DNA from: Streptomyces aurantiacus
GTDB taxonomy: Bacteria > Actinomycetota > Actinomycetes > Streptomycetales > Streptomycetaceae
Length of the DNA: 64,000 nt
NCBI RefSeq assembly: GCF_027107535.1
Contig: NZ_CP114283.1
Span: 1,798,001 to 1,862,000 of the forward strand
Direction: 5' to 3'
In this document: in pieces, positions 1,436-18,752 of the stretch
Layout: each line of letters opens with the position of its first letter
Position numbering within the stretch: position 1 is the stretch's first letter
Position numbers and translations under genes: made by a program
Notes under the pieces: generated by a model
What the model was told of the DNA's origin: nothing
Database searches by the model: none
What the model saw: only the letters and a program-made list of their open reading frames with translations

Positions 1436-2329
1436 CTACAAGAGCGACTGGCTCCAGGTGACTGCGGCGCCGGGGTCTTGGACGGGGTGCCAGACGGGTG
1501 CGGAAGGGCCGTCGCTGCGCAGGTCTGTCAGTGACGCCACGAGGACGGGAACGTAGCGGAGGAAGCCGTCCGCAGCCGGGTCCTGGGCAGCTGCATGCAG
1601 GGCGCGGATGCGTGTGGTGACGCCTACTGGGCCGGTGCCGTCCAGGACGAACAGGACGCGAGGAAAGAGCGGATAGCGCCGCCGCCATTCCTCCTCCACC
1701 AGGTCCTGCGTGAAGGCGGTTCGGCGGCGGGCGACGGGAGTGGGGGTGTAGCGGTGAAGGCGAGCGTAGGCGCCGATTTTCGCGGCCAGGCGTTCCGGGC
1801 CCATGGTGGCCCGGTCAACCTCGATGAAAGCTCGCAGCATTGACCCGCCATCGGCGGGACCTCGCTGGTAGTACATGAGGGCGTCGGGTATGACAGCCTC
1901 GCCGGCTCCGAGGGAGTGGTGGACCTCGGGGATCCAGTCCAGAGGCCGGCACAGATCGCCGCATCGGCGCGCGTCTTCGACGAAGGCAAGCGCGGTATCG
2001 GTCACCGTCAGCGTGTGTCCTGTCCGCAGTCTTGCCGCTGTCGGGTCGGACACCGTCTTCGGTGGTCGCCGACCGCGCAGCTCCGGCCATTCCGAGGCGA
2101 TGTGCGCGCCGTAGGACGTCGGAAACCACACGCGCAGCCGTCCCGCCCGGGGCAGGGTGATGCGGTCGACCAGTCCCTCATTGCGCAGCTTGGCCATCCG
2201 TCGCCGCGTCTGTTCGCTACGTACCCCCGGTGCGATCAGCCGGTGCAACTGCTCGGTGGTGGCCATCCGGTACTGCGTCAGCACCGCCAGTGCCAGGCGG
2301 TCCCCACCGCCTGTATCCACGTCCGTCAT
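1436..2329 (-). CDS. Replication-relaxation family protein
   Basis: This 297-residue protein resembles the replication-relaxation (Replic_Relax) family found on actinobacterial plasmids and integrative elements. The N-terminal third is a winged-helix-like segment (LAVLTQYRMATTEQLHRLI, then a TRRRMAKLRNEGLVDRI recognition-helix region). The middle has the family signature HxLxVTDTALAFV near residue 110, and a PDALMYY segment and an acidic FIEVDRATMGPERLAAKI segment near residues 165-185, resembling a degenerate nuclease-fold core. The ATG start gives the full family-like length. It is separated from the jet operon by about 0.5 kb and is convergent with nothing on its 3' side except the 33-bp repeats. 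It marks the region as plasmid- or ICE-derived. The precise biochemical role is not known from sequence. Confidence 0.75.
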   Translation of the reverse strand: MTDVDTGGGDRLALAVLTQYRMATTEQLHRLIAPGVRSEQTRRRMAKLRNEGLVDRITLPRAGRLRVWFPTSYGAHIASEWPELRGRRPPKTVSDPTAARLRTGHTLTVTDTALAFVEDARRCGDLCRPLDWIPEVHHSLGAGEAVIPDALMYYQRGPADGGSMLRAFIEVDRATMGPERLAAKIGAYARLHRYTPTPVARRRTAFTQDLVEEEWRRRYPLFPRVLFVLDGTGPVGVTTRIRALHAAAQDPAADGFLRYVPVLVASLTDLRSDGPSAPVWHPVQDPGAAVTWSQSLL

Positions 2330-2885: not shown

Positions 2886-4493
2886 ATGGTGGGGGACGAA
2901 CTGTACGAAGAACCACATGCCGAGCGGTCCGGAAAGGAGAGCGACACCGAGACCTGGCAGCGGCTGAGCGCGTACGCCTACCTCAGCGCGCCCGAGCGGT
3001 TGGAGTACGTCGCGGTGATGCGGGTGTTCTGCGGCACCCTGCTCGCGGACCTGGCCGTACCCGAGGTGCTCGCCAAGCTGGCACAGGCCAGGCAGCCGGC
3101 GGCAGCGCTCGGCGCGGAGACACTGACCGCGCGGCTCGAACAGCTCGTGCGCTGGGGCAATCTGCTGCGCAGCACGCACACGGTCACCGCGACCAGCATC
3201 GCCGAGTACCAACGCTCCCGGTCCCGCTACCAGCTGTCCAAGCTGGGCGAACGCGTACAGCGCGACGCCGACGAGGTGCTGGCGGGAGCGGACGCCGCGC
3301 GTGAGGTCAGCAGTGAGCTGCTCACCCTCGTCGACCGGGGACTCAAAGAGATCGCCGCCCTGGCCGCCACGCCGGGCGGCACGGACCCGCAGCAGGCACT
3401 GGAAAAGATCAGCACCCTCTTCGCACAGTTCGCCGAATTCGCCGAGTCGGTACGGGACTTCTACGCCTACCTCGGCCAGGTGCTCGCCCGCTACGACCTC
3501 GACGGAGCCGAGTACCAGGGGTTCAAGGAACTGCTGCTCGACTACGTGGAGGCGATCACTGAGGACGTGTCCTTCCGCGCCCCGCGCATCGCCGCCCACC
3601 TGCGGGAGATCTGGCCGCACCTGCCCACGCTGCTGAACCGCATCGACACCCATGCGACAGGCCTGGGAGCACTGTCCGACGCCCTGCCCGAGACGCGGGT
3701 GCAGCGCAGCCGGGGACGGGCACTGGCCGACTGGGAGGGGCTGCGCGACTGGTTTGCCGACAGCGACGGCCACGGCAGCCAAGTGGACCAGCTCCGGGAC
3801 GCGACCCTGCGCGCCCTGCAGTCGCTGCTCGCCAACGCCAAGCGGATGCTGCGCTCCGCGTCGGGGGAGATGTCCCGCCGCAAGGACCTGCTCAGGCTCG
3901 CGGCCTGGTTCGACGCCGCGGAGCCCGAGGAGGCCCACGACATCGCGGTCGCCGCCTTCGGGCTGTACGGGGCACGGCATCTGGGCGTGGCACCGGATCC
4001 CGACCAGTCCGTACCGGCGTACGTGAGCTGGTGGACCGGGCCCGTCGTGGACGTGCCGGTGGCGTTGCGCGAGCGAGGCAGCCGGGCCCCGCGCGGGAGG
4101 TCGGCGGCCATGGAGGACCACCGCGAGCAGAAGTGCCGCCTCCTGGAGCAGGCGCGCGAGCAGGCCGCCGCCCGCCGGGATGCGGCCGCCGAACTGCGCA
4201 GCGCATCGGGCCGGTTCGACCAGGTGAGGCTGGGCTCCGCCGCCATGCGGTTACTGCTGGAACTGCTCACCGCAGCCCTCGGCCACGCTCAACTGCACAA
4301 GGAAGCCGGTGACTTCCAGCTCGACGGCGCGCAGGCAGGTGACGCGGATCTGGGCATCAGGCTGACGGTGTGGCGCACCCCGGGCAGACACACCCTGCTG
4401 CGCTCCGTGGACGGCGACCTGACGGCGGACGATCTCACCCTGGCCGTCGAAAGCGCCTCGGCGTCCGCCGCAGCCGAGGAGGCGAGCGCCTGA
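2886..4493 (+). CDS. jetA: Wadjet JetA, kleisin-like subunit (DUF2397 / TIGR02677)
   Basis: This is the first gene of a four-gene Wadjet anti-plasmid operon (535 residues). The N-terminal segment AYLSAPERLEYVAVMRVFCGTLL and the following long helical body fit the DUF2397/TIGR02677 family, the kleisin-like component that bridges the SMC heads in this Wadjet class. The middle (ARYDLDGAEYQGFKELLLDYV, about residues 198-218) and the C-terminal VRLGSAAMRLLLELL region are family-typical. The stop codon overlaps the jetB start (TGATG), implying translational coupling. Codon 456 (4251-4253) is TTA, the leucine codon that in Streptomyces is read only by the bldA tRNA, so full-length JetA may be limited to late growth or differentiation. 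An alternative GTG start at 2862 has a better ribosome-binding site. Family assignment is firm; the kleisin role is from work on Wadjet homologues. Confidence 0.9.
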   Translation: MVGDELYEEPHAERSGKESDTETWQRLSAYAYLSAPERLEYVAVMRVFCGTLLADLAVPEVLAKLAQARQPAAALGAETLTARLEQLVRWGNLLRSTHTVTATSIAEYQRSRSRYQLSKLGERVQRDADEVLAGADAAREVSSELLTLVDRGLKEIAALAATPGGTDPQQALEKISTLFAQFAEFAESVRDFYAYLGQVLARYDLDGAEYQGFKELLLDYVEAITEDVSFRAPRIAAHLREIWPHLPTLLNRIDTHATGLGALSDALPETRVQRSRGRALADWEGLRDWFADSDGHGSQVDQLRDATLRALQSLLANAKRMLRSASGEMSRRKDLLRLAAWFDAAEPEEAHDIAVAAFGLYGARHLGVAPDPDQSVPAYVSWWTGPVVDVPVALRERGSRAPRGRSAAMEDHREQKCRLLEQAREQAAARRDAAAELRSASGRFDQVRLGSAAMRLLLELLTAALGHAQLHKEAGDFQLDGAQAGDADLGIRLTVWRTPGRHTLLRSVDGDLTADDLTLAVESASASAAAEEASA

Positions 4494-5836
4494 TGCCCCT
4501 GCCCTCCGCCCACGATGTGGCACTTGCCGCCGAACGCCGCACCGCCGCCCGCCTGCTGCTGGCCCACCCCCTGATCACCAGCAACGGCCCGCACAGCGAC
4601 ACCTTCCCGCTGATCCGCCGCCACGCCGACTGGCTCGCCCAGCGTTTCCAGCAGGTGTTCGGCTACCGACTCCTCGTCGAGGCGTCCTACGCCCGCCTGT
4701 TCAAGGCCGGCCTCGGCCCTGGCTCCGGCCACCGCCTGGAGCGGCCCTCCACCGGCACGCCGTTCACTCCACGGACGTACGCCTATCTGGCACTCGCCCT
4801 CTCAGTCCTGGTCACCGCCCCCGAGCAGCTCCTGCTCTCCCGGCTCGTAGCCGACCTGCGGGCCGCGGCCGTGGACGCCGGGATCGAAATCAGTGACACC
4901 GGCCGTCAGGCGGAGCGGCGCACCCTCGCCGCCGCGCTGCGCCAACTCGTCGACTGGGGCGTGCTGGCAGAGACCGAGGGCCACGTCTCGTCGGTCGCCG
5001 CGGAACAGGGCGGCGAGGCGCTGCTGACCGTGGACCGCGAGATCGCCCGCGCGGTCGCCGCCGGACCGCTGGCGCAAAGCCGCGACGGAGCAGATCTCGT
5101 CCGCCGGGCCGCCGACCCCGGCTTCGGCGGCCCGCGCACGTACGTGCGCAGACGCCTCGTCGAGACACCCGCCGTCCACCTCGACGACCTCACCGGCGCC
5201 GAGCGGGAATGGCTGCGGACCCGGCAGCGCCGTGAATCCCAGGCGTTTTCCGAACTGCTGGGCCTGGAGGCCGAGATCCGTGCCGAGGGCATCGCCCTCG
5301 TCGACCCGGACGGCGACCTCACTGACCTGCACCTGCCCGGCACCGGCACCGTCGCCCAGGCGGCGCTGCTGCTGATCGGACGGCTGGTCGACCGACTGCG
5401 CCCCGAGGATCCCGGCCACCCCGCGGTCGGCGGGCAACTGGTCATCGGCGTGCCCGTCCCGGACGGGCTGCTGCCCGAACTGCTCGATGAACTCGTCGAC
5501 GAGTACGGCCGACGCAGCAACTGGCAGCGAGGCCTGCTGGACAACCGCGACGGGCTGCTCGCCGCCGTCCTGGATCTTCTGGTCCGCATGCACCTGATGG
5601 CACCCGTCGGCGCGGTGCGCGCCGACGGCCACGGCCTGCCCGAGAAATACGAGGAGGCAGCGCTGGACGGCCGGTCCGTCACGGACGTCTCGGGTGCCCG
5701 GGGGCAGGACGGGGCGGGCGGGTGGGTGCTGCTTGCCGCGGCCGCTCGGTTCGCCACCACGGTGGCCGTCACCTCCCGTACCGAGCAGCCCCCAGCGGAC
5801 GACGTCTCGCAGGAGCTTAAGGAGCCGACCCGGTGA
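4493..5836 (+). CDS. jetB: Wadjet JetB, KITE-like subunit (DUF2398 / TIGR02678)
   Basis: A 447-residue protein starting at the ATG that overlaps the jetA stop. The opening (AAERRTAARLLLAHPLI, then FPLIRRHADWLAQRFQQVFGYRLLV) and the following TPRTYAYLALALSVL segment are characteristic of DUF2398/TIGR02678, the tandem winged-helix KITE partner in Wadjet complexes of this type. The LDNRDGLLAAVLDLLVRM segment near residues 346-363 sits in the C-terminal winged-helix part. The gene ends inside the jetC start (GTGA), so the two are probably co-translated. There are no catalytic motifs, as expected for a structural subunit. The C-terminal 40 residues look less conserved and are rich in Thr, Glu and Pro. 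Confidence 0.88.
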   Translation: MPLPSAHDVALAAERRTAARLLLAHPLITSNGPHSDTFPLIRRHADWLAQRFQQVFGYRLLVEASYARLFKAGLGPGSGHRLERPSTGTPFTPRTYAYLALALSVLVTAPEQLLLSRLVADLRAAAVDAGIEISDTGRQAERRTLAAALRQLVDWGVLAETEGHVSSVAAEQGGEALLTVDREIARAVAAGPLAQSRDGADLVRRAADPGFGGPRTYVRRRLVETPAVHLDDLTGAEREWLRTRQRRESQAFSELLGLEAEIRAEGIALVDPDGDLTDLHLPGTGTVAQAALLLIGRLVDRLRPEDPGHPAVGGQLVIGVPVPDGLLPELLDELVDEYGRRSNWQRGLLDNRDGLLAAVLDLLVRMHLMAPVGAVRADGHGLPEKYEEAALDGRSVTDVSGARGQDGAGGWVLLAAAARFATTVAVTSRTEQPPADDVSQELKEPTR

Positions 5837-8800
5837 ACCGCCCCCCTTTCCCGCACCGCTACCGCCTGCACCGCGCCGGCATCCGCAACGTCTGGCAGTA
5901 CGACGAGCAGGAGTTCGCCTTCGGCGACGGCCGCCTGCTGCTGCGCGGCAAGAACGGCGCCGGCAAGTCCAAGGCCCTGGAGATGCTGCTGCCGTACCTC
6001 CTCGACGGTGACGCCCGCGCTCTGGATGCCACCGGGACCGGCCGGACCACGCTCCTGTGGCTGATGCTGGACGGTTTCGAGCAGACCAACCGGCTGGGCT
6101 ACCTGTGGGTGGAGTTCGTGCGCACGGACGAGGAGGGCAACGACCACCACCTCACGCTCGGTGCGGCCGTCCGCGCCTCCCAGTCGACCAGGACGGCCAA
6201 GCCGTTCTTCTTCGTCACCCCGCTGCGGGTGGGCGAGGACCTGCACCTGGCCGTCGCCGGTCAGCCGTTGCCGATCGAGCAGCTCAAGTCGCTCGTCGGC
6301 CCGGAGTACGTCACCGACCGTGCCGTGGAGCACCGGGCCAGGGTCGCCCGCCACCTGTTCGGCCTCACCGATCCGGCGCGCTACCGCAACCTGCTGCATC
6401 TGCTGCACCGCCTGCGCCGCCCCACCATCGGCGACCGTATCGATTCCGGCGGTCTGGTCTCCGTCCTCGCGGAGACGCTTCCCGCGCTCGACGACGAGGT
6501 CGTGGACAAGGTGGCCCGCAACCTCGACGATCTGGACGCCGTACGGACCGACCTCGGGCGCCTGGAGCGGACCGACGAGGCACTGCGGACCTTCCTCACC
6601 GGGTACCGCGGCTACCTGCACGGGGCCCTGCGCCGCCGGGCTGATGAGGTGAACGGCGAACTGGAACGGCTGACGGAGCATCGGCGCTCGGCCGGCGAAG
6701 CGGTGAAGAAGGTGGCGGCGCTCCGCACGCGTGAGGACGAACTCGCCGCCCGCCTCGACACCCTCACCTCGCAGGCGGAGGAGGCCGAGACCGACCTCGC
6801 CGCCCTGCACGCCAGCACTGCCTACCGAAGCCTGCAGGAACTCGGCGAAAAGCGCGCCACCGTGACCGCCCTGCACAGTGCGGCAGCGACCGCATTCAAG
6901 GCCCTGCGCCAGGCCCACAGCAGCCAGGAAGAGACAGGACACCGGCTCACCGAGGAAGCCGGGAGGCTCGGCGCGGAACTCGTCGAACTCAGCACCACAT
7001 ATGGTGAGTTGCTGCGTGAGGCGGAGCGTGTCGGTCTCGACCCCGCGCACCTGGGCGAGCCCGTGGCGGCCCCCGTCACCCCGGTCGCGGATGCGACAGT
7101 GGCCGAACTGACCGCCCCCGACGGTGATTTCCACCTCGTGCGGCACAACGAGGTGCTGGCCATCGACACGGAGACCTGCGCGGGTGCCCTGCTCGCCCTG
7201 GACTCCCAACTGGACGCCGCTGGACCCGTCATCAGGAACCGCACCCGGGCCGTGACCGAGTTGGCCGCGCTCATCGACACGACGCGCCGGGCCCAGCAAG
7301 AGGCGCACGAGGCCGATGCCGCCCGGGAGCGTCTGGAGGAGCAGGCGGACGAGGCACGTGAGCGGGCCGGACGCCGATGGGAGGAGACGGCACGTGAAGG
7401 GCAGGCCTACACGGACGCCGTACGGACCTGGACCGAGCAGGTGCACAGTCTCACCAGCGTGTCCCTCGACGCCGTGCACGCCCTGATCGCCCACGACCCG
7501 GCGGAGGGCCCGCTGCCCGCCCACGCCCCCGACGAGGTGGCCGACACCGCCCGGTCGGCCGTCGAGCCGTGGCTTGCGGCACTGGGCGAACAGCGCGACG
7601 CACGGGCGGTGGCCATCCGCGAACTGGCCGCCGAACAAGACCGCCTGGCGCGTGAGCGGAAGGACTGGGAAGCCCGCACCGACCCCGAGCCAGCCCCTGC
7701 GCCCCACCGCTCGGCCCCCCGCACGCCCGGCACCGGCGCACCCCTGTACCGGCTCGTGGACTTCGCCGACGGCCTGGAGCCCGAGGCACGGGCGGGCCTG
7801 GAAGCCGCACTCGAGGCCAGCAGTCTGCTCGACGCCTGGGTGTGCTCCGACGGCACCGTCCTGGACCCGGCCACGCGCGACACCCTCCTCACCCCCGGCA
7901 CACCGGCCGCCGAACCCACACTCGCCGAGGCACTGCGCCCGGTCCCGGCACCGGACAGCGCGGTGAGCACCGAGCAGGTCGAGCGTCTGCTCCATACCGT
8001 GGCCCTGGTCACGGACGCGACCAGGGGCACGATGGCGGAATCCGCGATCGGCACCGACGGCTCCTGGAAGCTGGGCGTCGCCCGGGGCCGTCACACCAAG
8101 CAGACCGCCGAGTACGTCGGCGCCGAGGTACGCGCCGAAACCCGCCGCCGGGCCCTGACCGAACTCGACCGGCGACTCGCTCATGTACAGGAGAAGTTGA
8201 CAGAGCAGGAGCAAGGCCTGCGGATCCTGTCGGAGCACCGCGCACACGTGACCGACACCCTGAGCCACCCGCCCACAGCACGCCCACTGACCGACGCGTG
8301 GGCCCGCACCACCGAGGCCGAGCGCGCCGCACACGTACTGGCCGGCAAGGCATCCGCAGCCGCCCGCGAAGCGGAGCAGGCCCGCGCCCGGGCAGTCGCC
8401 GCCAGACGTGAGGCCGAGGCGACCGCGAGCGCGAACGACCTCCCCATCGACCCGGCCGCGCTCGACTCCGCACGCCTCTCCCTGGACCGCCTCGGCACAG
8501 GCACGGAACGACTGCGCCGACGGCTGCACGCGATCACGTCCGCCACCGACGCCCACCGCCAGGGCCGCGAAGCCCACGACCGCGCCCTGACATCCACTCG
8601 GGAAGCACAGTCCGACTACACCGAGCCGCTCACGCGCCTGGAGGCCGCACGCCGCACGGTCCTGGGCCTGGAGCAGGCGCTGGACGCGCCGGAACAAGAA
8701 ATCCTCGCCCGCGAGGACGAGGCGAAACGACGCCTGGAGGCGGTGAGGCGCCAACTCCCCGGCGCAGCACGAGACGTGAACGCCGTACACGACGAACGCG

Positions 8801-10008
8801 TGCGCGCAGAGGAAGACGAGAGGGTCCGACGGGCCGCGCTGGCCACGCAGGAGGGCGAGACGATCGACAAGGGCAGGCGACTGCGTACAGCGCTGTCCCT
8901 GCCGGGCGTGACCAAAGGCGCGGGCCTCGACACACGAGCACAGGACGCGGAAGGCCAGCCCCCCTTCGCCAAGGACGGCACACACGACCGCACCAAGGCA
9001 CTGCGCCGGCTCGTGGAAACCGTACGCAACAGCCTCGACACCGAGCGCCGCGACATCTCGGACACCACCCTCCTCAACCGCCACACCGAGCTGCGCGACC
9101 AGCTCTCCGGAGGCTACGACGCCACACTGGAGGAACACGACGGCATCAAGGTCTGCCATCTCGTCGACGACCACGGCCCGCACGACATCGCCGCGGTCGG
9201 AGAACGCATCGCCGCCCAGGCCGCCGACGCACGCGAACGGTTGACGGAGCGCGAACGAGAGGTGTTCCAGCGGTTCCTGACCGGCGAGCTGGGCGACCAC
9301 CTCTCCGGTCAGGTCCTGGCCGCGGGCGCCCTGGTCGCCGCTCTGAACGGCACCCTGTCCACCGTCCGCACCTCACACGGGCTGGGCGTCACACTCGACT
9401 GGAAACTGGCGGACGGCGTGGAGGCCGACGTCAAGGCAGCGGTCGACCTCCTGCGCAGCCCCTCCGGCCTGCGCACCCGCGAGGAGTCCGAACAGCTCCG
9501 CGACGTACTCCAGCGGCGCATCGAGGACGCTCGCCGCGCAGACCCGGGCGCGGGCTACGCGGCCCACCTGCGCACCGCCCTCGACTACCGCGCCTGGTTC
9601 ACCTTCACCCCCTGGGTGGTCAACGACGCAGCACCCGGCAGCCGCCGCAAACTCACCGGCCGTACGGGCCTCAGCCAGGGCGAGCAACGCGTCCTGTCCT
9701 ACCTCGTCCTCTTCGCCGCCGCAGCCGCCCACTTCACCAGCCTCGCCGACACCGCCCCGTACGCCCCCCGGCTGATCCTGCTGGACGACGCGTTTGCCAA
9801 GGTCGACGAACCCACCCACGCGCGCCTGGGCCGCATCCTGGTCGACCTGGACCTGGACTTCGTCCTCACCAGCGAACGCCTCATCGGCAACTGGCCCGAC
9901 GTGCCCTCGCTGCACATCTACGAGTGCCTGCGTGATCCGCACGTGAGGGGAGTGGCAACCCTCCATTACACGTGGAACGGTCGGCAGAGGCGGCTGGTGT
10001 CGGTATGA
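5833..10008 (+). CDS. jetC: Wadjet JetC, SMC-like ATPase (TIGR02680 / SbcC-like)
   Basis: A 1391-residue SMC-family motor. The N-terminal head has Walker A GKNGAGKS at residues 39-46. Two long coiled-coil stretches rich in Arg, Glu, Ala and Leu (about 240-420 and 760-1090) flank a hinge-like globular part with PLYRLVDFADGL near 640. The C-terminal head has the ABC signature LSQGEQRVLSYLVLF at about 1280 and Walker B LILLDDAFAKVDE with Asp1318. GTG start overlapping the jetB stop; its own stop overlaps the jetD ATG (ATGA). In Wadjet the JetABC complex extrudes DNA loops using ATP to sense small circular DNA; that mechanism is from studied homologues. All ATPase motifs are intact, so an active motor is expected. 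A very long antisense open frame over this gene is a codon-bias shadow. Confidence 0.92.
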   Translation: MNRPPFPHRYRLHRAGIRNVWQYDEQEFAFGDGRLLLRGKNGAGKSKALEMLLPYLLDGDARALDATGTGRTTLLWLMLDGFEQTNRLGYLWVEFVRTDEEGNDHHLTLGAAVRASQSTRTAKPFFFVTPLRVGEDLHLAVAGQPLPIEQLKSLVGPEYVTDRAVEHRARVARHLFGLTDPARYRNLLHLLHRLRRPTIGDRIDSGGLVSVLAETLPALDDEVVDKVARNLDDLDAVRTDLGRLERTDEALRTFLTGYRGYLHGALRRRADEVNGELERLTEHRRSAGEAVKKVAALRTREDELAARLDTLTSQAEEAETDLAALHASTAYRSLQELGEKRATVTALHSAAATAFKALRQAHSSQEETGHRLTEEAGRLGAELVELSTTYGELLREAERVGLDPAHLGEPVAAPVTPVADATVAELTAPDGDFHLVRHNEVLAIDTETCAGALLALDSQLDAAGPVIRNRTRAVTELAALIDTTRRAQQEAHEADAARERLEEQADEARERAGRRWEETAREGQAYTDAVRTWTEQVHSLTSVSLDAVHALIAHDPAEGPLPAHAPDEVADTARSAVEPWLAALGEQRDARAVAIRELAAEQDRLARERKDWEARTDPEPAPAPHRSAPRTPGTGAPLYRLVDFADGLEPEARAGLEAALEASSLLDAWVCSDGTVLDPATRDTLLTPGTPAAEPTLAEALRPVPAPDSAVSTEQVERLLHTVALVTDATRGTMAESAIGTDGSWKLGVARGRHTKQTAEYVGAEVRAETRRRALTELDRRLAHVQEKLTEQEQGLRILSEHRAHVTDTLSHPPTARPLTDAWARTTEAERAAHVLAGKASAAAREAEQARARAVAARREAEATASANDLPIDPAALDSARLSLDRLGTGTERLRRRLHAITSATDAHRQGREAHDRALTSTREAQSDYTEPLTRLEAARRTVLGLEQALDAPEQEILAREDEAKRRLEAVRRQLPGAARDVNAVHDERVRAEEDERVRRAALATQEGETIDKGRRLRTALSLPGVTKGAGLDTRAQDAEGQPPFAKDGTHDRTKALRRLVETVRNSLDTERRDISDTTLLNRHTELRDQLSGGYDATLEEHDGIKVCHLVDDHGPHDIAAVGERIAAQAADARERLTEREREVFQRFLTGELGDHLSGQVLAAGALVAALNGTLSTVRTSHGLGVTLDWKLADGVEADVKAAVDLLRSPSGLRTREESEQLRDVLQRRIEDARRADPGAGYAAHLRTALDYRAWFTFTPWVVNDAAPGSRRKLTGRTGLSQGEQRVLSYLVLFAAAAAHFTSLADTAPYAPRLILLDDAFAKVDEPTHARLGRILVDLDLDFVLTSERLIGNWPDVPSLHIYECLRDPHVRGVATLHYTWNGRQRRLVSV

Positions 10009-11303
10009 CGGGCCACCGAGCGGCGAACAGCACGCCCCTGGACGCCGAGACACTGGCCTTCCTCACCCGGCCCGGCCTCGCCCGCCTCTGGACAGCCGCA
10101 CGTACCCGCCTCGAACGCAACGGCCTGCAACCGACCGGCACAATCAGACTCCAGCACCTGGACACGCAGGAACGCCAGGACCTCTCCCTCCTCCTCGCGA
10201 AACCGCTCACCACCTCCACCGCCACGATCCACCTGCCAGACCTGAACACCCGTCTACGCACCAGCGCGGCCGGCCGCGGCCTGGCCGAGACCCTGACGGC
10301 ACTGGGCCCGGCCCTGACCGACCGCCGGGCGGCGCGGGACGCAGCCGCGGCGCAACGCGCCAGCCTGTGGTCCGCGGCGGAAGCGGCCCTCGCCGACACA
10401 CCACTGGCCCCCCAACCCTGGACGGCCCGGTGGATGGAGGAGATACGACGCGCAGGGACGCTCGCCCGCCAGGACCAGCACACCGCGACCACGATCATCC
10501 ACCAGGCGATCCGGACGCTGGCCACGCTCTTCCCCGGCCCGCACGCGGAACACACCCCAGCCGTCTGGGGCCGCGGCGAACTCGCCACCCGCACCACTGG
10601 CTCGGCCCATGGCCTGGACGACGGCACCCTGCTCTCCCGTCTGGTCCTGCGCGGCATCGCCCTGGCATCCGACACGCACGTCCCCGCTGACGCACCGGGC
10701 CGCCGGACCTTGTGGCGTCAGGCCTCGGTCACCCCGGACGAGGTGTCCAGCACAGTCCTCAGCTACGGCTTGCGGCCCACAGGCGCGAGCTGGGGCGAGA
10801 AGATCCTGCAAGAGCGCGCGGACCACAATCTGGAGACCCACCTCACCCTGCGCGAACTACGCACCCTCCACCTGGAGATGCCACCCCGCACCCGGATCCA
10901 CGTATGCGAGAACCCACGCGTGGTCGAAGCCGCCGCCGACGCCGGTTGTACCGCAACCCTGGTCTGCACTTCCGGCAGCGCGACGACGGTCGTCCGCACC
11001 CTGCTCGACGCGCTGGCCACCGCCGGCTGCGCGTTCGCATACCACGGTGACTTCGACTGGCCGGGGATCACACTGGCCAACCGCGTCGTGGAACGGTACA
11101 GAGCGCAGGCATGGCGCATGAGCGCGCAGGACTACGAGTACCTCGCGACCCGCACCCAGATACACGGCACTCCGCAGCTTCTCCTCACCGGTCCGCGCGT
11201 GGAAGCCGTATGGGACATAGAACTGGCACCGACCATGGACGCCCTGGGCATCGCCCTCCACGAGGAGGCGGCGCTCGACCTGCTTTTGGAGGACCTCGCC
11301 TGA
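10005..11303 (+). CDS. jetD: Wadjet JetD, Toprim-like DNA nuclease subunit (DUF2399 / TIGR02679)
   Basis: The last gene of the Wadjet operon (432 residues). The N-terminal half (LARLWTAARTRLERNGL onward) matches the TIGR02679/DUF3323 type. The C-terminal DUF2399 domain has the topoisomerase-VI-like Toprim signature: Glu302 in VCENPRVVEAA and the acidic pair Asp349/Asp351 in YHGDFDWPGI. These residues coordinate the metal used for DNA cleavage in characterised JetD proteins. The start ATG overlaps the jetC stop. With all four genes present, in order, tightly coupled and with catalytic residues intact, the system looks functional and would cleave invading circular plasmids. No recognisable gene follows in the same direction; a hairpin lies 34 bases after the stop. 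Confidence 0.9.
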   Translation: MTGHRAANSTPLDAETLAFLTRPGLARLWTAARTRLERNGLQPTGTIRLQHLDTQERQDLSLLLAKPLTTSTATIHLPDLNTRLRTSAAGRGLAETLTALGPALTDRRAARDAAAAQRASLWSAAEAALADTPLAPQPWTARWMEEIRRAGTLARQDQHTATTIIHQAIRTLATLFPGPHAEHTPAVWGRGELATRTTGSAHGLDDGTLLSRLVLRGIALASDTHVPADAPGRRTLWRQASVTPDEVSSTVLSYGLRPTGASWGEKILQERADHNLETHLTLRELRTLHLEMPPRTRIHVCENPRVVEAAADAGCTATLVCTSGSATTVVRTLLDALATAGCAFAYHGDFDWPGITLANRVVERYRAQAWRMSAQDYEYLATRTQIHGTPQLLLTGPRVEAVWDIELAPTMDALGIALHEEAALDLLLEDLA

Positions 11304-11678: not shown

Positions 11679-12599
11679 TCACCAAGGGCCATCCTTCGAC
11701 TCGCCGGTGTGCGGGTCGGTGGTGAGCGCGGCCGCGGCGACGGCGGTCCGCGGCTCGGCCGGGTCGTCGGGGTCGTCCGCCGGGGTGAGATCGGCGAGGT
11801 GGGCGTCAAGGTTGACGATGGTGTCGACGAAACCGTCGTATCGCACGATCCGGAAGTCCAGACCCAGCATCCGATGCAGAGCGCCGGGCGCCGCGCCACC
11901 GTCGTCGTCCACCACGACGAACCGGGTGAGCTTGGGCAGCCGGGTGCGCAGCAGCTCGCCACCGCTCGCGGCAAGGACGGTGTTCAGATCGTCCGCGTCC
12001 CTGGAAAGCATCAGCTCCACATACTCCAGGCGCATCCCCGACTCGCGGCAGAAGAGCTGGTACACGGTGTCGGGGCTGAGGACGAACCGCTTGGCCTGCC
12101 GGTAGCCGAGCGTGACGTACAGCCCGGCCAGGAACTCGCAGCGGCGAGCCACCTCGGGCGCCATGTCCGGTTCACCGCCCAGAAGCGCCGCGCTTCCGGT
12201 GTTGGTGAACCAGACCAGCACGTCGACGAGCCGGCGGACCGCCAGCAGCCCGTCTTCGTCACTGATGTCGTACCCGTCGTGCGTGGACCGGTTGCGGAGC
12301 CGACGGATGTCTTCGAGTGCGTCGATGACCGTGCTGCTGCGTATGTGCGGACGACAGCGTTTGACGAGGTCGTTCAGGGCCTTGGTCGAGGGGTCGCCCT
12401 CGATGCCGTGGTGGCGCTACAGCTCCTTGAGTAACTTCTCGGTCAGTTTGCCGATCAAGGCGACGGCGTTCTCGGGATAACCGTCGTTGAGGGACCTCAG
12501 CGGCCGTTCCAGATCGAGCCCCAGCCGATCGGCGATCCGCGAGTGATCGTCGAGTTCACTCCGTAGGCGCCTCAGCCGCTCGTCGACCACGGTACTCAC
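11679..12599 (-). pseudogene. HEPN-domain-like protein interrupted by an in-frame TAG
   Basis: The frame from GTG 12599 encodes 60 residues (MSTVVDERLRRLRSELDD onward), meets TAG at 12417-12419, then continues in the same frame, without indel, for 245 more codons to TGA at 11679. The part after the stop contains RLRNRSTHDGYDI: R102-N103-x3-H107 is the RN-x3-H active-site motif of HEPN ribonucleases. The context (KLLKEL-stop-RHHGI) suggests a Trp TGG to TAG change, as LW-RHH would fit the helix. The start overlaps the methyltransferase stop as GTGA, so the pair was an operon. Codon 56 is TTA (12432-12434). Either the gene is dead, a shorter product starts downstream (GTG near 12221), the amber is read through, or it is a sequencing error. 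HEPN assignment rests on the motif and helical pattern only. Confidence 0.6.
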
Positions 12600-13423
12600 G
12601 CGTCTTCACTCCCTCGTTGTCCGAGGATGAACGCGAACCGGTCGGGAAACACCAGGACGGGCTCCGGATGGGCGATCCGCATCTCTTCGACGCCCTTCTC
12701 GATCTCACTGTCGCTGAAGGTGGAGAGCAGGGACATGTAGCGGGCTCGGACCATGCCGAGGTACTTGTCCCGGCCGATGCGCAGCTCGTGCTCGACGTGG
12801 GTGAGTTCGGCTTGAAGCCCTGCCGCGCGCAGATGCCGCTCGATGGCGGCGGGGGCCGGCTGCAGCTCCTCGAAACGGTCGAGGGCCGCGCTGAACAGCG
12901 GGTACTGGATGGTGGCAGGGAGCATCACCACCAGCAGTCGACCTCCGGGGGCCAGTTGGTCGCTGAGACCCTGGAGTGTGCGCGCGGGGTCGGCCACATG
13001 GTGCACCGACTCCTTCAACCACATCGCGTCGAGCTGCTCGTACGGCAGGTGGGCGCGCCCTTCGGCGATGTCCTCGGCGGAGGCGACGACCGGCGTCAGA
13101 TCGGGCGGCGGCGGTGTGCCGAGCCAGCGGAGCATCGCCTCGGACGGATCGACGCACAGAAGGGGACGGCGTGGTTGGACCTGCCTGGCTACTTCTTTGG
13201 CGAACAGGCCGGTGCCCGAGCCGATGTCGGCGATCCGGTCCGTGGGGCCGAGCTGCAACGCCTCGGCGATCCGGCCGGACATCCAGGGAACATAGTCGGG
13301 GCCGTAGACCCAGTGCTCGTCGTACTCTGCTGCCAGCTCCTCGTAGTGCCCACGCGCGTCGCGCCGCTCCACGATCCCCCTCGTGCCCCGTGTGTCACCG
13401 CCTGTGCTGTGTCCTTCGTCCAT
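12596..13423 (-). CDS. Class I SAM-dependent methyltransferase
   Basis: A 275-residue Rossmann-fold methyltransferase. Motif I IADIGSGTGLFAKEV lies at about residues 62-76 and binds the SAM methionine and ribose. The acidic end of strand 2 is CVDPSEAMLRWL near residue 90. LDAMWLKESVHHVADP and APGGRLLVVMLPA are motifs II and III. The N-terminus (HYEELAAEYDEHW) is typical of small-molecule or Methyltransf_11/25 enzymes. The substrate cannot be told. It is upstream of, and overlaps by four bases, the HEPN-like gene, so the two were co-expressed. ATG 13423 gives the longest frame. A pairing with a HEPN protein in a defence island suggests a modification role, but this is inference. Confidence 0.82.
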   Translation of the reverse strand: MDEGHSTGGDTRGTRGIVERRDARGHYEELAAEYDEHWVYGPDYVPWMSGRIAEALQLGPTDRIADIGSGTGLFAKEVARQVQPRRPLLCVDPSEAMLRWLGTPPPPDLTPVVASAEDIAEGRAHLPYEQLDAMWLKESVHHVADPARTLQGLSDQLAPGGRLLVVMLPATIQYPLFSAALDRFEELQPAPAAIERHLRAAGLQAELTHVEHELRIGRDKYLGMVRARYMSLLSTFSDSEIEKGVEEMRIAHPEPVLVFPDRFAFILGQRGSEDA

Positions 13424-15666: not shown

Positions 15667-16020
15667 GCTGGATAGTGGCCCCGGGGAGCGCCCGGCGCTG
15701 CCGGAGGAGGAGCGGCCGTGCCAACCGTGCATCCGTGCCAACTCTGGCATCCGTGCCATCCGTGCCATAGGACACCGCAGCTGGCGACGGCGTCAGCGTC
15801 GACATCAACAACGGCGCGTCTGGCGCCGGCGGGACGGAGTCGGCCGTCGCCCCGCGCGACCGCTCCGGCGCGCGTCCACCGGGTCCCCGCGGGCCGGGCA
15901 CATCATGATCGGCTGAGGCCGGATCCGGTCCCCGCCCCCCGCCCTCGCCGACGGGCAGGATCCGTCACGTCGGCCGCCCCCTCACGGCCCGCCTCCTCGC
16001 CCCACCGAACGGAGCAAGTC
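15667..16020. other. Leader region of the hydrolase operon
   Basis: No gene is supported. ATCCGTGCCA-like words are repeated three times between 15731 and 15768. The hydrolase ribosome-binding site GGAG stands just before 16021. A long open frame through the region lacks coding features before 16021. Confidence 0.45.
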
Positions 16021-16980
16021 ATGCCCCTCCTCGCCCGCCCGGCGGTGGCCTCCCTCGTCGCCAGAGCGATGCAGCGGGTCAACAGCCTGGTGATCGAACG
16101 GCACCTCGCGTCCTCCCTCTACAAGCGTTATCCGGAGTACCCCCGCACCACCCGCGAGCTGACCGTCCCGACCTCGGTCGCGCCGGCCCGTGCCGTGGTC
16201 TACCTGCCGGACATCGCCCCGGGCACGCCTGTGCCGGTGCACGTCAACTTCCACGGGGGTGGCTATGTCCTGCCGCCGATCGGGCTGGACGACCCCCTGT
16301 GCCGGTTCCTCGCTGCGGAGGCCGGGGTGGCCGTGGTCAACGTGGACTACGCCGTCGCTCCTCAGCACCCGTTCCCCGCCCCGCCCCGACAGGCGTACGA
16401 GATCGTCCGCTGGGTCGCCGAACACGGCGCGGAGCACGGCTGGGACGGCACCCGGCTCACGGTGGGCGGGCAGAGCGCCGGTGGCGGCCTCGCGGCGGCG
16501 GTCGCCCGGCAGGCCCTGGACGCCGGGGACGAGGGCGCGCCGGTCATCGCGCTCCAGGTGCTCCACTACCCGCCCTTCGACCTCGCGACCGGCGCCCGCG
16601 ACAAGCGCGCGGCCATCGCCAGGCCGATGCTGCGCCCCTGGATGGCGGACGTCTTCGACTCCTCGTACGTACCGGATCCGCGTCAGCGCACCGACCCTCT
16701 GGTCTCCCCGGCCCATCCGTCGGACACGGCCGACCTCACGGGTATCGCCCCCGCCTTCGTCGTCACCGCCGAGAACGATCTCCTGCGCGCGGAGGGCGTC
16801 CGCTACGCCGAGCGGCTGCGTGGGGTCGGCGCGCTGCTCGGTCACTACGACGTTCCGGGCGCCGATCACGGTTACGACCAGAAGGACGCCGAAACGGCCA
16901 GAGGCGTGTACGCCCTGATCGCCGAGCGCGTACGACGGGCCACCGCGCCCGACGAGACCCTCAAGGAGGAGCAGCGATGA
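16021..16980 (+). CDS. Alpha/beta hydrolase (hormone-sensitive-lipase-type esterase)
   Basis: A 319-residue esterase of the HSL/bacterial family IV type. The oxyanion-hole motif is HGGGYV at about residues 79-84, the nucleophile motif GQSAGG at about 150-155, the acid Asp lies in ENDLLRAEG near 255, and the His in GADHGYDQ near 283. There is no signal peptide, so it acts in the cytoplasm on small acyl or aryl esters. A GGAG ribosome-binding site supports ATG 16021. The stop overlaps the next ATG (ATGA), so it is co-translated with the SDR. Control by the divergent TetR regulator is likely. The substrate is unknown; with the SDR and the nearby enoyl-CoA hydratase a catabolic route for an ester or lipid-like compound is plausible. 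Confidence 0.88.
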   Translation: MPLLARPAVASLVARAMQRVNSLVIERHLASSLYKRYPEYPRTTRELTVPTSVAPARAVVYLPDIAPGTPVPVHVNFHGGGYVLPPIGLDDPLCRFLAAEAGVAVVNVDYAVAPQHPFPAPPRQAYEIVRWVAEHGAEHGWDGTRLTVGGQSAGGGLAAAVARQALDAGDEGAPVIALQVLHYPPFDLATGARDKRAAIARPMLRPWMADVFDSSYVPDPRQRTDPLVSPAHPSDTADLTGIAPAFVVTAENDLLRAEGVRYAERLRGVGALLGHYDVPGADHGYDQKDAETARGVYALIAERVRRATAPDETLKEEQR

Positions 16981-17744
16981 GTTCCACCACAGGTCTGTCG
17001 GGCCGGGCGGTCGTCGTCACGGGGGCCGGCTCCGGCATAGGCCGCGCGGCCGCGCTGCGGTTCGCGGCGGAGGGCGCCCGCGTGGTCCTCGCCGACATCA
17101 ACGGGGAGGGCGCCGAGGCGGCCGCCAGGGAGATCTCCGCGGCCGGCGGCACCGCCGTCACCGTGATCGGGGACCTCAGCGATCAGCAGGTCGTCGACCG
17201 GGTCGTGGCCACCGCCGTGGACGCCTTCGGAGGCATCGACGTACTGGTCAACAACGCGGGCGTCATGGACAGGATGTCGGCCGCGGCCGACACGAGCGAC
17301 GCCGAGTGGGAGCGCGTCCTGGGGATCAACCTCACCGCGCCGTTCCTGCTCAGCCGCGCCGCGCTGCCCCACCTCCTCGCGAGCGGCAACGCCGCGATCG
17401 TGTTCACCGCCTCCGAGGCGTCCCTGCGCGGCAGCGCCGCCGGTACCGCGTACACGGTCGCCAAGCACGGCATCGCCGGCCTCACCAGGTCCCTCGCCGT
17501 CATGTACCGCGACAAGGGAGTGCGGACGAACGCGATCGCCCCCGGCGGCACCGTGACGAACATCCAGGTCGAGTTGGACCGGGACGCGCACGGACCGTCC
17601 GTGATCATGCGCCATCTGGGCAACGCCGGCCGTACGGCGACCGCGGACGAGCAGGCGGCCGCCATCGTCTTCCTGGCCTCCGACGCCGCGAGCAACGTCA
17701 ACGGCGTCATCCTCCCGGTCGACAACGGCTGGTCCGCCGTCTGA
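16977..17744 (+). CDS. SDR family NAD(P)-dependent oxidoreductase
   Basis: A 255-residue classical short-chain dehydrogenase. Cofactor motif TGAGSGIG at residues 15-22, Asp39 in VLADINGE suggests NAD preference, NNAGV is near 90, and the catalytic Ser and YTVAK are near 142 and 157-161. The C-terminus has the usual VNGVILPVDNGWS. It is the second gene of the operon with the esterase, overlapping by four bases. It would oxidise an alcohol or reduce a ketone, perhaps the alcohol released by the esterase; the substrate is not evident. The gene ends 30 bases before the convergent enoyl-CoA hydratase gene. Confidence 0.9.
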   Translation: MSSTTGLSGRAVVVTGAGSGIGRAAALRFAAEGARVVLADINGEGAEAAAREISAAGGTAVTVIGDLSDQQVVDRVVATAVDAFGGIDVLVNNAGVMDRMSAAADTSDAEWERVLGINLTAPFLLSRAALPHLLASGNAAIVFTASEASLRGSAAGTAYTVAKHGIAGLTRSLAVMYRDKGVRTNAIAPGGTVTNIQVELDRDAHGPSVIMRHLGNAGRTATADEQAAAIVFLASDAASNVNGVILPVDNGWSAV

Positions 17745-17774
17745 GGCCCCGCCCGGACGAGGCCGGAACCGGGT

Positions 17775-18446
17775 TCAGCCGAGAGGGTTGTCCCCGTTCC
17801 GCAGCGCGTCCAGGGCGGGCGCGTACATACGGGCCTTGATGGTGCCGAGCGTGGGGCCCGCCTTGCCGGCTTGGGCCCGGGCGAGCTCCACCGCGGTGCG
17901 GCGTACGGCGTCCTCGGCCACCGAGTGGTCGACGAGCCCGGCGGCGAGGGCGTCGTCGCCTCCGAAGCGGCGGGCGGTGACCATGGCCTCGTGCGCGGTG
18001 CGCGGCGTCAGCCGGGACTGGATCAGCGCGGACATGCCCGGGGTGAAGGGGATGTTGATGTCGGCCTCGGGCAGGCACCAGTAGCCGCGGTCGGCGCGCA
18101 TCACCCGGAAGTCGTGGGCCAGGGAGAACATCGCGCCGGCCGCGAAGGTGTGCCCCTGCAGGGCGGCCACGGTGACCAGCGGCAGGGAGAGCGTCCGCGC
18201 GAACAGCTCGTGGACGCCGACGACGTACTCCTGGTGCTGGTCGGCATGGGCGAACAGCCAGTCCAGGTCAAGGCCGTTGGAGTAGAACTTGCCGGTGGCG
18301 GCGGTCACCAGGGCCCGCGGGCCCTCCGCCTTCTCCACCTCGTCCAGGGCCGCGTTCACGGAGGCCAGCCAGTCGGGGTGGAATCGGTTCTCGCCGTCTC
18401 CGAGGTCGAGGACGAAGACGTCGTCCTGGCGGTCGAGTACGGGCAT
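17775..18446 (-). CDS. Enoyl-CoA hydratase/isomerase family protein
   Basis: A 223-residue crotonase-fold protein. KFYSNGLDLDWL near residues 51-62 and LQGHTFAAGAMFSLAHDFRVM near 95-115 are the two oxyanion-hole regions that hold the acyl-CoA thioester. PFTPGMSALI follows the position of the catalytic Glu; only one acidic residue is evident nearby (PEADIN), so isomerase rather than hydratase activity is possible. It is shorter than typical hydratases (about 255) and lacks part of the C-terminal helix. The start at ATG 18446 is chosen because MPVLDRQDDVFVLDL begins the fold; the open frame runs further upstream without coding features. A TetR-operator-like half site lies about 75 bases upstream. 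Confidence 0.82.
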   Translation of the reverse strand: MPVLDRQDDVFVLDLGDGENRFHPDWLASVNAALDEVEKAEGPRALVTAATGKFYSNGLDLDWLFAHADQHQEYVVGVHELFARTLSLPLVTVAALQGHTFAAGAMFSLAHDFRVMRADRGYWCLPEADINIPFTPGMSALIQSRLTPRTAHEAMVTARRFGGDDALAAGLVDHSVAEDAVRRTAVELARAQAGKAGPTLGTIKARMYAPALDALRNGDNPLG

Positions 18447-18518
18447 GGTGCCCCCTTCGGGCTGGGTGGCGAGCCTCTGCCGACGCGAGTGGGCGGGCCG
18501 AGCCTCGACCATGAAGCT

Positions 18519-18538
18519 ACTTGTCGGTAACTTATGAC
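18519..18538. promoter_or_regulatory. Candidate TetR-type operator before the enoyl-CoA hydratase
   Basis: ACTTGTCGGTAACTTATGAC contains the same ACTTGTCGG half site as the palindrome at 15645-15666, followed by a GAC(A) on the other side. Its position upstream of a minus-strand lipid-type enzyme gene suggests shared control with the hydrolase-SDR operon. Confidence 0.4.
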
Positions 18539-18648
18539 ACGGGACATAGAGCCTGCAAGAGGTCCGCGAAACACGCTGCCGATACGGCCTGTTGGGGCGG
18601 TCCGTCGAAACGCGCCATACGTAGTGGCCGGTTTCGGTCTCCACCCTG

Positions 18649-18662
18649 TGGGAGCGCTTCCA
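18649..18662. promoter_or_regulatory. CebR-like operator
   Basis: TGGGAGCGCTTCCA differs at one base from the streptomycete CebR (cello-oligosaccharide sensor) palindrome TGGGAGCGCTCCCA. It lies about 90 bases before the CBM2-bearing esterase gene, the kind of gene CebR controls. Confidence 0.75.
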
Positions 18663-18752
18663 CGACAGTCATGACCATGCCATGCGACCGGCCCCGTCGC
18701 GTGGTGTCGCTGCGCCGTGCCATCCCCCAGTCGTGATCCGGAAGGGACCGAC

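Follow-up and report, generated by a model that had tools for sequence, protein, structure and literature searches.

A type II Wadjet operon of Streptomyces aurantiacus with a DNA-repair-like promoter element and a RecF-like JetC motif pair

A complete type II Wadjet operon and its described relatives

Wadjet systems are encoded by 42% of Actinobacteria, and the copies in Streptomyces lie mostly toward the chromosome ends (PMC10482375); promoters and ATPase motifs are not discussed in the relevant passages of that survey. The type II system nvJET of Neobacillus vireti cleaves naked circular DNA (PMC12647877), and structures 9qe0 and 9qe1 are probably nvJET, judging by the listing of a Structure 2025 paper among cited references. 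An actinobacterial JetABCD homologue, EptABCD, is found in Mycobacterium smegmatis, where null mutants take up plasmids better (PMC10586767; PMC12287153); EptABCD is not mentioned in PMC5656591, and we liken it to the present locus from its published description. Information on the regulation of Wadjet in native hosts has been called "very scarce" (PMC12287153).

The window, meaning the whole 64,000-nucleotide stretch of Streptomyces aurantiacus DNA analyzed here, holds at 2886-11303 a type II Wadjet (JetABCD) operon whose four genes are all present and intact, located on the chromosome of this streptomycete. The four genes are co-directional in the order A-B-C-D with starts overlapping stops, and all frames are open:

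2886-4493, + strand: jetA, kleisin subunit of 535 aa (DUF2397, TIGR02677)
4493-5836, + strand: jetB, KITE-type subunit of 447 aa (DUF2398, TIGR02678), TGATG overlap with the jetA stop
5833-10008, + strand: jetC, SMC/MukB-like ATPase of 1391 aa (TIGR02680), GTG start within a GTGA overlap with the jetB stop
10005-11303, + strand: jetD, Toprim nuclease of 432 aa (DUF3323 and DUF2399, TIGR02679), ATGA overlap with jetC

An earlier note on this DNA had described this arrangement with exact coordinates and had assigned type II from domain families, an assignment with which Pfam and NCBIfam (TIGR02677-02680, all above cut-offs) concur. The PADLOC search that it proposed was run on open reading frames in which JetA was taken from 2964, JetB from 4370 and JetD from 9972, and the top model was type II for all four subunits, each labelled JetX2. 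JetA matched PDLC00541 (E 2.3e-220, residues 1-507 of the 509 aa searched), PF09660 (436.1 bits) and TIGR02677 (206.5 bits, cut-off 165.85); JetB matched PDLC00543 (E 2.5e-125), PF09661 and TIGR02678 (154.1 bits, cut-off 124.65); JetC matched PDLC00553 (1365.8 bits, E 0) and TIGR02680 (1409.9 bits, cut-off 462.85); and JetD matched PDLC00557 (E 3.8e-134), PF11796 with PF09664, and TIGR02679 (236.1 bits, cut-off 196). Chains of 9qe0 are matched by JetA (9qe0_E, E 4.8e-18), JetC (9qe0_A, E 4.4e-67) and JetB, which had no PDB match by sequence alone but reached 9qe0_D by profile (E 1.4e-18). JetD found no PDB match by sequence alone and a single chance-level one by profile. Across 24 gene comparisons with 6 relatives dN/dS was 0.10-0.35, and the jet frames are maintained by purifying selection. 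The operon by itself is ordinary since Wadjet is common in Actinobacteria, and taken alone it is one more Wadjet among many.

The surroundings bear out the description of an accessory region. Of 121 genomes sampled from the genus, this one included, 41 have a DUF2397 gene, the operon flanks match only two of 86 Wadjet loci by blastn (S. cupreus and S. phyllanthi), and a transposase gene and a Replic_Relax gene adjoin the operon. An empty site sought among relatives with the flank at 15900-19000 revealed no insertion boundary because this flank is itself scattered among them in short pieces. Of ten neighbors checked for a defence island, three had PADLOC matches; a neighboring methyltransferase matches mad2 (47.2 bits), and viperin/kinase-type matches come from two genes located 9-11 kb before the window begins. 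Comparison of the first and last 6 kb of the two contigs by blastn showed no terminal inverted repeats, and the chromosome record starts, by our reading, inside a dnaA-like frame. The second contig has 359,958 bases, and a replicon of this size class is reported to escape Wadjet (PMC10586767).

The catalytic residues of the nuclease are retained, with Asp349 and Asp351 as the earlier note had placed them and Glu302 as the third Toprim acid:

10908-10910, + strand: JetD Toprim Glu302, Glu in 74 of 75 aligned rows and invariant in a 42-row alignment
11049-11057, + strand: JetD Toprim Asp349-Phe-Asp351, each Asp in 74 of 75 rows and invariant in the 42-row alignment

The 75 rows include our own, and the one row with none of the three acids probably represents a wrong reading frame. 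These residues bear on a very unlikely alternative in which the operon is a MukBEF/MksBEF-like chromosome organizer with JetD serving chromosome maintenance under DNA damage. The promoter described below does group the operon with repair genes, but a MukBEF or MksBEF complex would lack a JetD-type nuclease, and here jetD is intact and keeps its three Toprim acids; its patchy presence in the genus is unlike that of a housekeeping factor, and type II nvJET cuts circular DNA (PMC12647877). A MukBEF-type organizer was rejected on the intact JetD.

The ATPase head of JetC

JetC carries the three motifs of the ATPase head, read from the sequence and alignments:

5947-5970, + strand: Walker A, GKNGAGKS (residues 39-46)
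9670-9687, + strand: ABC signature, LSQGEQ (residues 1280-1285), with Gln where rows with Asp-Glu at Walker B (DE) carry Gly or Ala
9772-9789, + strand: Walker B, LILLDD (residues 1314-1319), with Asp1319 at the usual position of the catalytic Glu

All three had been called intact. Walker A, the signature and Walker-B Asp1318 are present, but in the Walker B stretch LILLDDAF (1314-1321) Asp1319 replaces the catalytic Glu, which is non-canonical. The JetC of 9qe0 differs at both sites, with SGGE and LDE in place of SQGE and LDD. The motif survey used 94 of 95 rows with near-copies kept, three of which have no letters at the motif. Among the 91 rows with letters (near-copies included), 67 have Asp-Asp (DD) and 24 DE; the signature is S[QE]GE in 67/67 DD rows and S[GA]GE in 24/24 DE rows. 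Removal of the three letterless rows and of rows at least 93% identical to a kept one left a 50-row tree (26 DD, 24 DE) with a single DD/DE change, a one-branch split that has an SH-aLRT support of only 78 and long branches. A smaller motif comparison gave letters for 21 of 30 loci, and a large protein search with 1,374 matches, in which the named organisms among the 120 listed are all Streptomyces or Kitasatospora, covered too narrow a range and was left out of the motif counts. Asp1319 is not damage because it is conserved in its JetC clade, and decay was rejected on this ground.

In these alignments the pairing of Asp1319 with SQGE/SEGE marks one JetC clade and resembles RecF. Like our JetC, RecF has LDD at Walker B and a signature that lacks the second Gly, and RecF of this genome reads SHGES and VLVLDDVFAELD. 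RecF differs in its DNA repair role and in being far shorter, and JetC resembles it only in the C-terminal head, where TIGR00611 scores 28.4 bits, far below its cut-off of 172. In the RecF-ATP structure the corresponding pair is Asp314/Asp315; no ATPase activity is reported for that RecF and negligible hydrolysis for two others (PMC5794780). From the JetC substitutions we would predict that, relative to canonical Wadjet, ATP is turned over more slowly or the closed state lasts longer. Asp1319 might alternatively be a neutral clade marker, as putting Asp in place of Glu changes little chemically and Asp-Asp is also what RecF retains (PMC5794780), but the coupling of Asp to SQGE/SEGE in all 91 rows with letters argues against neutrality. 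As a natural variant of an SMC motor, the Asp-for-Glu clade lends itself to studying how the size limit of the plasmids that are cut depends on ATP turnover.

A RecA-NDp-like element before jetA

Immediately upstream of jetA lies a candidate promoter, an element that does not appear in the earlier note:

2857-2878, + strand: RecA-NDp-like promoter, TCTCAGTG-N8-TACGCT, one mismatch to TGTCRGTG-N8-TANNNT, with the -10-like TACGCT ending 7 nt before the jetA ATG

We take TGTCRGTG-N8-TANNNT to be the RecA-NDp consensus, attributed to Gamulin 2004, and recA of this genome fits it. Given the 7 nt between the -10-like hexamer and the ATG, the jetA mRNA is probably leaderless. The promoter block is conserved across 18 aligned jetA upstream regions, our own included. 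With at most one mismatch the element is present in 39 of 94 distinct jetA upstream regions (expected 0.14; reversed control 0), loci that are related by descent so that the 39 do not represent 39 independent events, and its distance to the ATG is fixed in 28 of these 39. The 94 were drawn from 114 JetA loci after dropping those with less than 330 bp before the match and those whose C-terminal 150 residues duplicated a locus already retained; two further loci lacking a JetA match are outside the 114. A looser scoring, superseded by the 94-region count, gave our copy 10 of 12 positions, a score reached by 10 of 1,700 shuffles, with 11 or more reached by none. Chance occurrence before jetA was rejected on 39/94 against 0.14 expected, and a scan of 121 genomes of the genus agrees.

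The element follows the relatedness of the loci. It is found, with at most one mismatch, in all 19 distinct loci of at least 81% JetA identity (own included), while 34 of 43 distinct loci in the sister group (67-76% JetA identity) lack it, as do 21 of the 32 that are more distant. Among loci drawn by JetC, a set of 13 from 31 genomes, it is present in three and absent in ten. In each of these three the only occurrence on that strand within about 5.6 kb coincides with the estimated start of jetA or slightly precedes it; the element is exact in L199, from another family, has one mismatch in L204, likewise outside the family, and is exact in L210, a DE-type locus of the same genus. Since many sister, distant and JetC-drawn loci are without the element, this regulation would be clade-wise and not general to Wadjet. 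Our own copy reads TCTC for TGTC and may for this reason respond less than those of the relatives.

The same element occurs elsewhere in the genome. Exact matches followed by an RTG at 7 nt occur 18 times (reversed control 0), and by our reading of the genes nine of the 18 precede repair or replication genes; genes preceded by the element include recA, uvrB, recQ, rarA, ogt, dnaX and an AlkZ-like gene. The RTG is not necessarily the start codon because at recA it lies 12 codons before the expected start. Each of the 121 genus genomes sampled, our own included, has at least five such sites, compared to four in all of them together for the reversed control. RecA-NDp promoters are described at recA and the UV-inducible SCO6735 of S. 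coelicolor (PMC5087735) and, according to a review, extend beyond mycobacteria (PMC8223512); the passages on this regulon, including those in PMC11804915, PMC5087735 and PMC8223512, name no anti-plasmid system as a member. An initial search with the M. smegmatis PafBC motif found no conservation in S. venezuelae (PMC9380542), and the element before recA and repair genes bears on the question left open there of a RecA/LexA-independent response in Streptomyces.

Putative coupling of plasmid defence to DNA damage

The resemblance of the jetA promoter to a DNA-repair switch, with TGTCRGTG-N8-TANNNT common to jetA, recA and other repair genes here, suggests that DNA damage may be what switches on the defence against plasmids. 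PafBC is activated by single-stranded DNA (PMC11804915). This genome encodes pafB and pafC as adjacent WYL-WCX genes, one with HTH_PafC, about 2 kb downstream of a PafA-like gene (named from its sequence) and about 0.9 Mb from the jet operon. PafBC is a WYL regulator, as are the members of the BrxR family, whose homologues co-localize with defence systems including Wadjet (PMC9122601). The brxR gene adjoins its defence genes, whereas here the link is the promoter element and pafB-pafC are distant.

We consider it likely that this is an anti-plasmid Wadjet II that in its own clade is wired to a PafBC-type DNA-damage response. Possible, though in our view doubtful, is that an ordinary type II Wadjet, constitutive or otherwise regulated, stands behind a plain promoter that merely looks like RecA-NDp, with Asp1319 as the neutral marker considered above. 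The mismatch in the upstream element of our copy and the many relatives without it would fit such a promoter; it accords poorly with an element far above chance before jetA at a mostly fixed distance from the ATG, and with the same element before recA, uvrB, recQ, the AlkZ-like gene, ogt, rarA and dnaX.

Control by LexA is highly improbable. We take CGAAC-N4-GTTCG to be the LexA box consensus, which with at most one mismatch occurs in none of 112 jetA upstream regions (unthinned), a scan that is weak because even the box of recA is recovered only when two mismatches are allowed. Two weak look-alike boxes with two mismatches each lie upstream of jetA, and Streptomyces does have a LexA regulon (PMC9380542), but on these counts LexA control of jetA is unsupported.

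Under the favored PafBC-type wiring, transcription of jetA would start from a RecA-NDp-type promoter and probably yield a leaderless mRNA. In mycobacteria, promoters of this type are activated by PafBC when it senses single-stranded DNA, and DNA damage or single-stranded DNA from plasmids is for this reason expected to increase expression of the operon. By homology and on the basis of the family mechanism (PMC10586767), JetABC would extrude DNA loops powered by the JetC ATPase; a small circle fully reeled in would activate the JetD Toprim nuclease and be cut, so that small circular plasmids would be eliminated, with the chromosome and large replicons left untouched. By analogy with relatives, the operon would give this strain immunity to plasmids, and the RecF-like head (SQGE, Asp1319) may slow ATP turnover or extend the closed state of the motor.

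More tentatively, Wadjet in these actinomycetes could be an inducible defence triggered by single-stranded DNA, in which PafBC co-induces leaderless jetABCD and repair genes as one regulon. PafBC would sense single-stranded DNA that arises from plasmids on entry, from rolling-circle plasmids, or from damage through which mobile elements are excised, and a slow RecF-like ATPase would make the extruder dwell longer before release.

The promoter provides a direct and cheap handle on the regulation of Wadjet in a native host. If the proposed wiring is true, such strains could take up plasmids less readily when exposed to DNA damage or conjugal single-stranded DNA.

Identity and setting of the Wadjet operon

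The four frames of the operon and their TGATG, GTGA and ATGA joins lie exactly where the earlier note had placed them, and its type II Wadjet label was borne out by a PADLOC check in which type II models came top for every subunit. All four models of the TIGR02677-02680 set score above cut-off on JetABCD. JetA and JetC have sequence relatives in PDB entries 9qe0/9qe1, taken to be the type II Wadjet nvJET of Neobacillus vireti; a JetB relative in the same entries was reached with a profile search, and PDB sequence and profile searches with JetD gave no credible match. The window occupies positions 1,798,001-1,862,000 of a contig of 9,539,225 bases, the second contig of the assembly has 359,958 bases, and the genome holds a single DUF2397 match.

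Features of the operon and its surroundings (window positions)
-205 to 622, spanning the window start: transposase, integrase core (HTH_21 + rve), upstream of jetA
1216-1396: 33-bp tandem array, 5.5 copies, 97% matches, between the transposase and the Replic_Relax gene
1436-2329 (-): Replic_Relax gene, adjoining the operon upstream of jetA
2886-4493: jetA, DUF2397, TIGR02677-02680 set; best PADLOC match type II
4493-5836: jetB, DUF2398, TGATG join with jetA; best PADLOC match type II
5833-10008: jetC, SbcC_Walker_B (Pfam), GTGA join with jetB; best PADLOC match type II
10005-11303: jetD, DUF3323 + DUF2399 (Pfam), ATGA join with jetC; best PADLOC match type II
11679-13423 (-): 180-aa gene without family, 60-aa frame and methyltransferase, downstream of the operon

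The region had also been called accessory, and it is indeed variable and marked by mobile elements, with the transposase and the Replic_Relax gene representing mobile-element remains upstream of jetA. In a comparison with 86 Wadjet loci (L033-L118), each with flanks of at most about 10 kb, the first three downstream genes (180-aa, 60-aa, methyltransferase) recur only in S. phyllanthi (L088:3414-5131), where they lie on the opposite side of the operon, and upstream DNA from 2559 on has a blastn match only in S. cupreus (L053). A TetR regulator is also found downstream, beside the no-family gene and the methyltransferase, and genes past 22 kb have a few distant homologues in the compared loci. 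An insertion site of the operon was looked for among relatives and not found. Radical SAM, thymidylate-kinase-like and sulfatase genes cluster outside the window, some 9-12 kb upstream of its start (L002:5796-8953 in the DNA around it), and two of them gave viperin/kinase-type PADLOC matches.

Across jetABCD, dN/dS is 0.10-0.35 (24 comparisons, 6 relatives). JetD residues Glu302, Asp349 and Asp351 are each conserved in 74 of the 75 rows compared; the one that deviates is apparently in the wrong frame. In some relatives jetA or jetC is split into pieces in different frames (G078:C377, G101:C1, G119:C111; L093, L097, L111), so copies elsewhere are decaying or misassembled. Within the genus, 41 of 121 genomes, our own counted, have DUF2397; of 296 genomes sampled across the phylum, 31 match TIGR02680, 21 of them exceeding the cut-off. 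JetA matches occur in 19 of 72,556 records of a plasmid collection (16 from Streptomyces), the best four on replicons of 0.69-0.94 Mb.

The JetC ATPase head

JetC Walker B had been described as intact; the motif is there as LILLDDAFAKVDE, but Asp1319 replaces the catalytic Glu that SMC and ABC ATPases usually carry at this position. The signature reads LSQGEQ, not SGGE. PDB JetC chains 9qe0 and 9qxt combine SGGE with LDE, in contrast to SQGE with LDD here, a pair resembling the SHGES and VLVLDD of the genome's own RecF. Walker B type and signature covary without exception: 67 rows pair Asp (DD) with S[QE]GE and 24 pair Glu (DE) with S[GA]GE, from 94 rows that include near-copies and three without letters at the motif. 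A head-domain tree built from 50 thinned rows (26 DD, 24 DE; motif columns left out) needs a single change to split the two types, a result equalled by 0 of 500 label shuffles; the branch has a support of 78 in a tree with long branches. Kitasatospora, Nocardioides and Arthrobacter are among the DD rows, and the 21 phylum-wide loci with letters, our own counted, divide into 5 DD and 16 DE.

In an ATP-bound RecF structure, the active-site water is contacted by Walker B residues Asp314 and Asp315 (PMC5794780). ATPase activity was not seen for this RecF, and ATP hydrolysis by two others is called negligible (PMC5794780). We infer that SQGE and Asp1319 may slow the motor or keep the head closed for longer.

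A RecA-NDp-like element before jetA and across the genome

In an upstream alignment of 18 close operons, our own counted, set-wide conservation is confined to about 45 bp before the start. Its core, GTGTCAGTG-N8-TACGCT-N7-ATG, is what we take to be the RecA-NDp promoter, whose consensus is attributed to Gamulin 2004. By a strict count (TGTCRGTG-N8-TANNNT, at most one mismatch), 39 of 94 distinct jetA upstream regions carry the element, where first-order shuffles predict 0.14 and reversed sequence gives 0; because the loci are related, the 39 are not independent events. An in-frame ATG or GTG follows in 28 of them, always at 7 nt with 6-8 permitted. The element is present in 19/19 loci with JetA identity of at least 81% to the window, 9/43 at 67-76% and 11/32 below 40%, and accompanies heads of the DD and the DE type alike. 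Of 13 additional loci selected through JetC, 3 carry it (L199, exact, and L204, one mismatch, from other families; L210, exact, from the genus); in each, its one occurrence on that strand of about 5.6 kb is at the estimated jetA start or shortly before it. Our own copy has TCTC instead of TGTC, and two-mismatch look-alikes of a longer pattern number 6 in the whole window, this copy counted, against 1.4 expected. Allowing up to one mismatch, no LexA box was found before jetA in 112 regions, a setting that would also miss the recA box.

The exact pattern followed by RTG at 7 nt marks 18 sites in the genome (G000:C2, L181-L198) and 0 in reversed sequence. Frames starting there encode RecA, UvrB, RecQ, an AlkZ-like glycosylase, O6-methylguanine methyltransferase, MgsA/RarA, a UvrD-type helicase, DnaX and, as we read its domains, a RadA-like protein; the remaining nine are WGR, SWIM, methylthiotransferase-like, amine oxidase, DUF4253, DUF3263 and three without family. 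At recA this RTG lies 12 codons before the expected start, so an RTG at such a site does not always serve as the start codon. Each of 121 sampled genus genomes, our own counted, has at least 5 exact sites with RTG, against 4 in total in reversed sequence. A PafA-like gene, pafB and pafC cluster at 2.71-2.72 Mb of our genome.

RecA-NDp has been reported upstream of S. coelicolor recA and UV-induced SCO6735 (PMC5087735), in mycobacteria it is where PafBC acts (PMC6789036; PMC8223512), and ssDNA activates PafBC (PMC11804915). Against this, S. venezuelae did not seem to conserve the PafBC motif of M. smegmatis in a first search (PMC9380542).

Proposed working and novelty

For the family, JetABC is proposed to extrude DNA with ATP and JetD to cut a circle below about 100 kb once it has been fully consumed, while linear DNA and larger DNA escape (PMC10586767); type II nvJET cleaves naked circles (PMC12647877). 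Judging from the family, the complex here most likely works in this way, JetD cutting a small circle when it is exhausted. In this clade, ssDNA or damage may raise the amount of Wadjet complex, the rise proceeding via a leaderless transcript from a putative PafBC-type promoter.

Wadjet is reported in 42% of Actinobacteria genomes (PMC10482375), the M. smegmatis Ept system is a known actinobacterial example (PMC10586767; PMC12287153), and co-localisation has connected WYL regulators with defence loci, Wadjet included (PMC9122601). Subscription literature aside (including that on the type II structure and the PafBC regulon), the matches listed contain no link of Wadjet to PafBC, RecA-NDp or DNA damage and no mention of an SQGE/LDD JetC head. 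The operon is thus a known system, and the clade-specific head and regulatory link appear new and directly testable. A PafBC-type regulon of Streptomyces could be listed from sites of this element.
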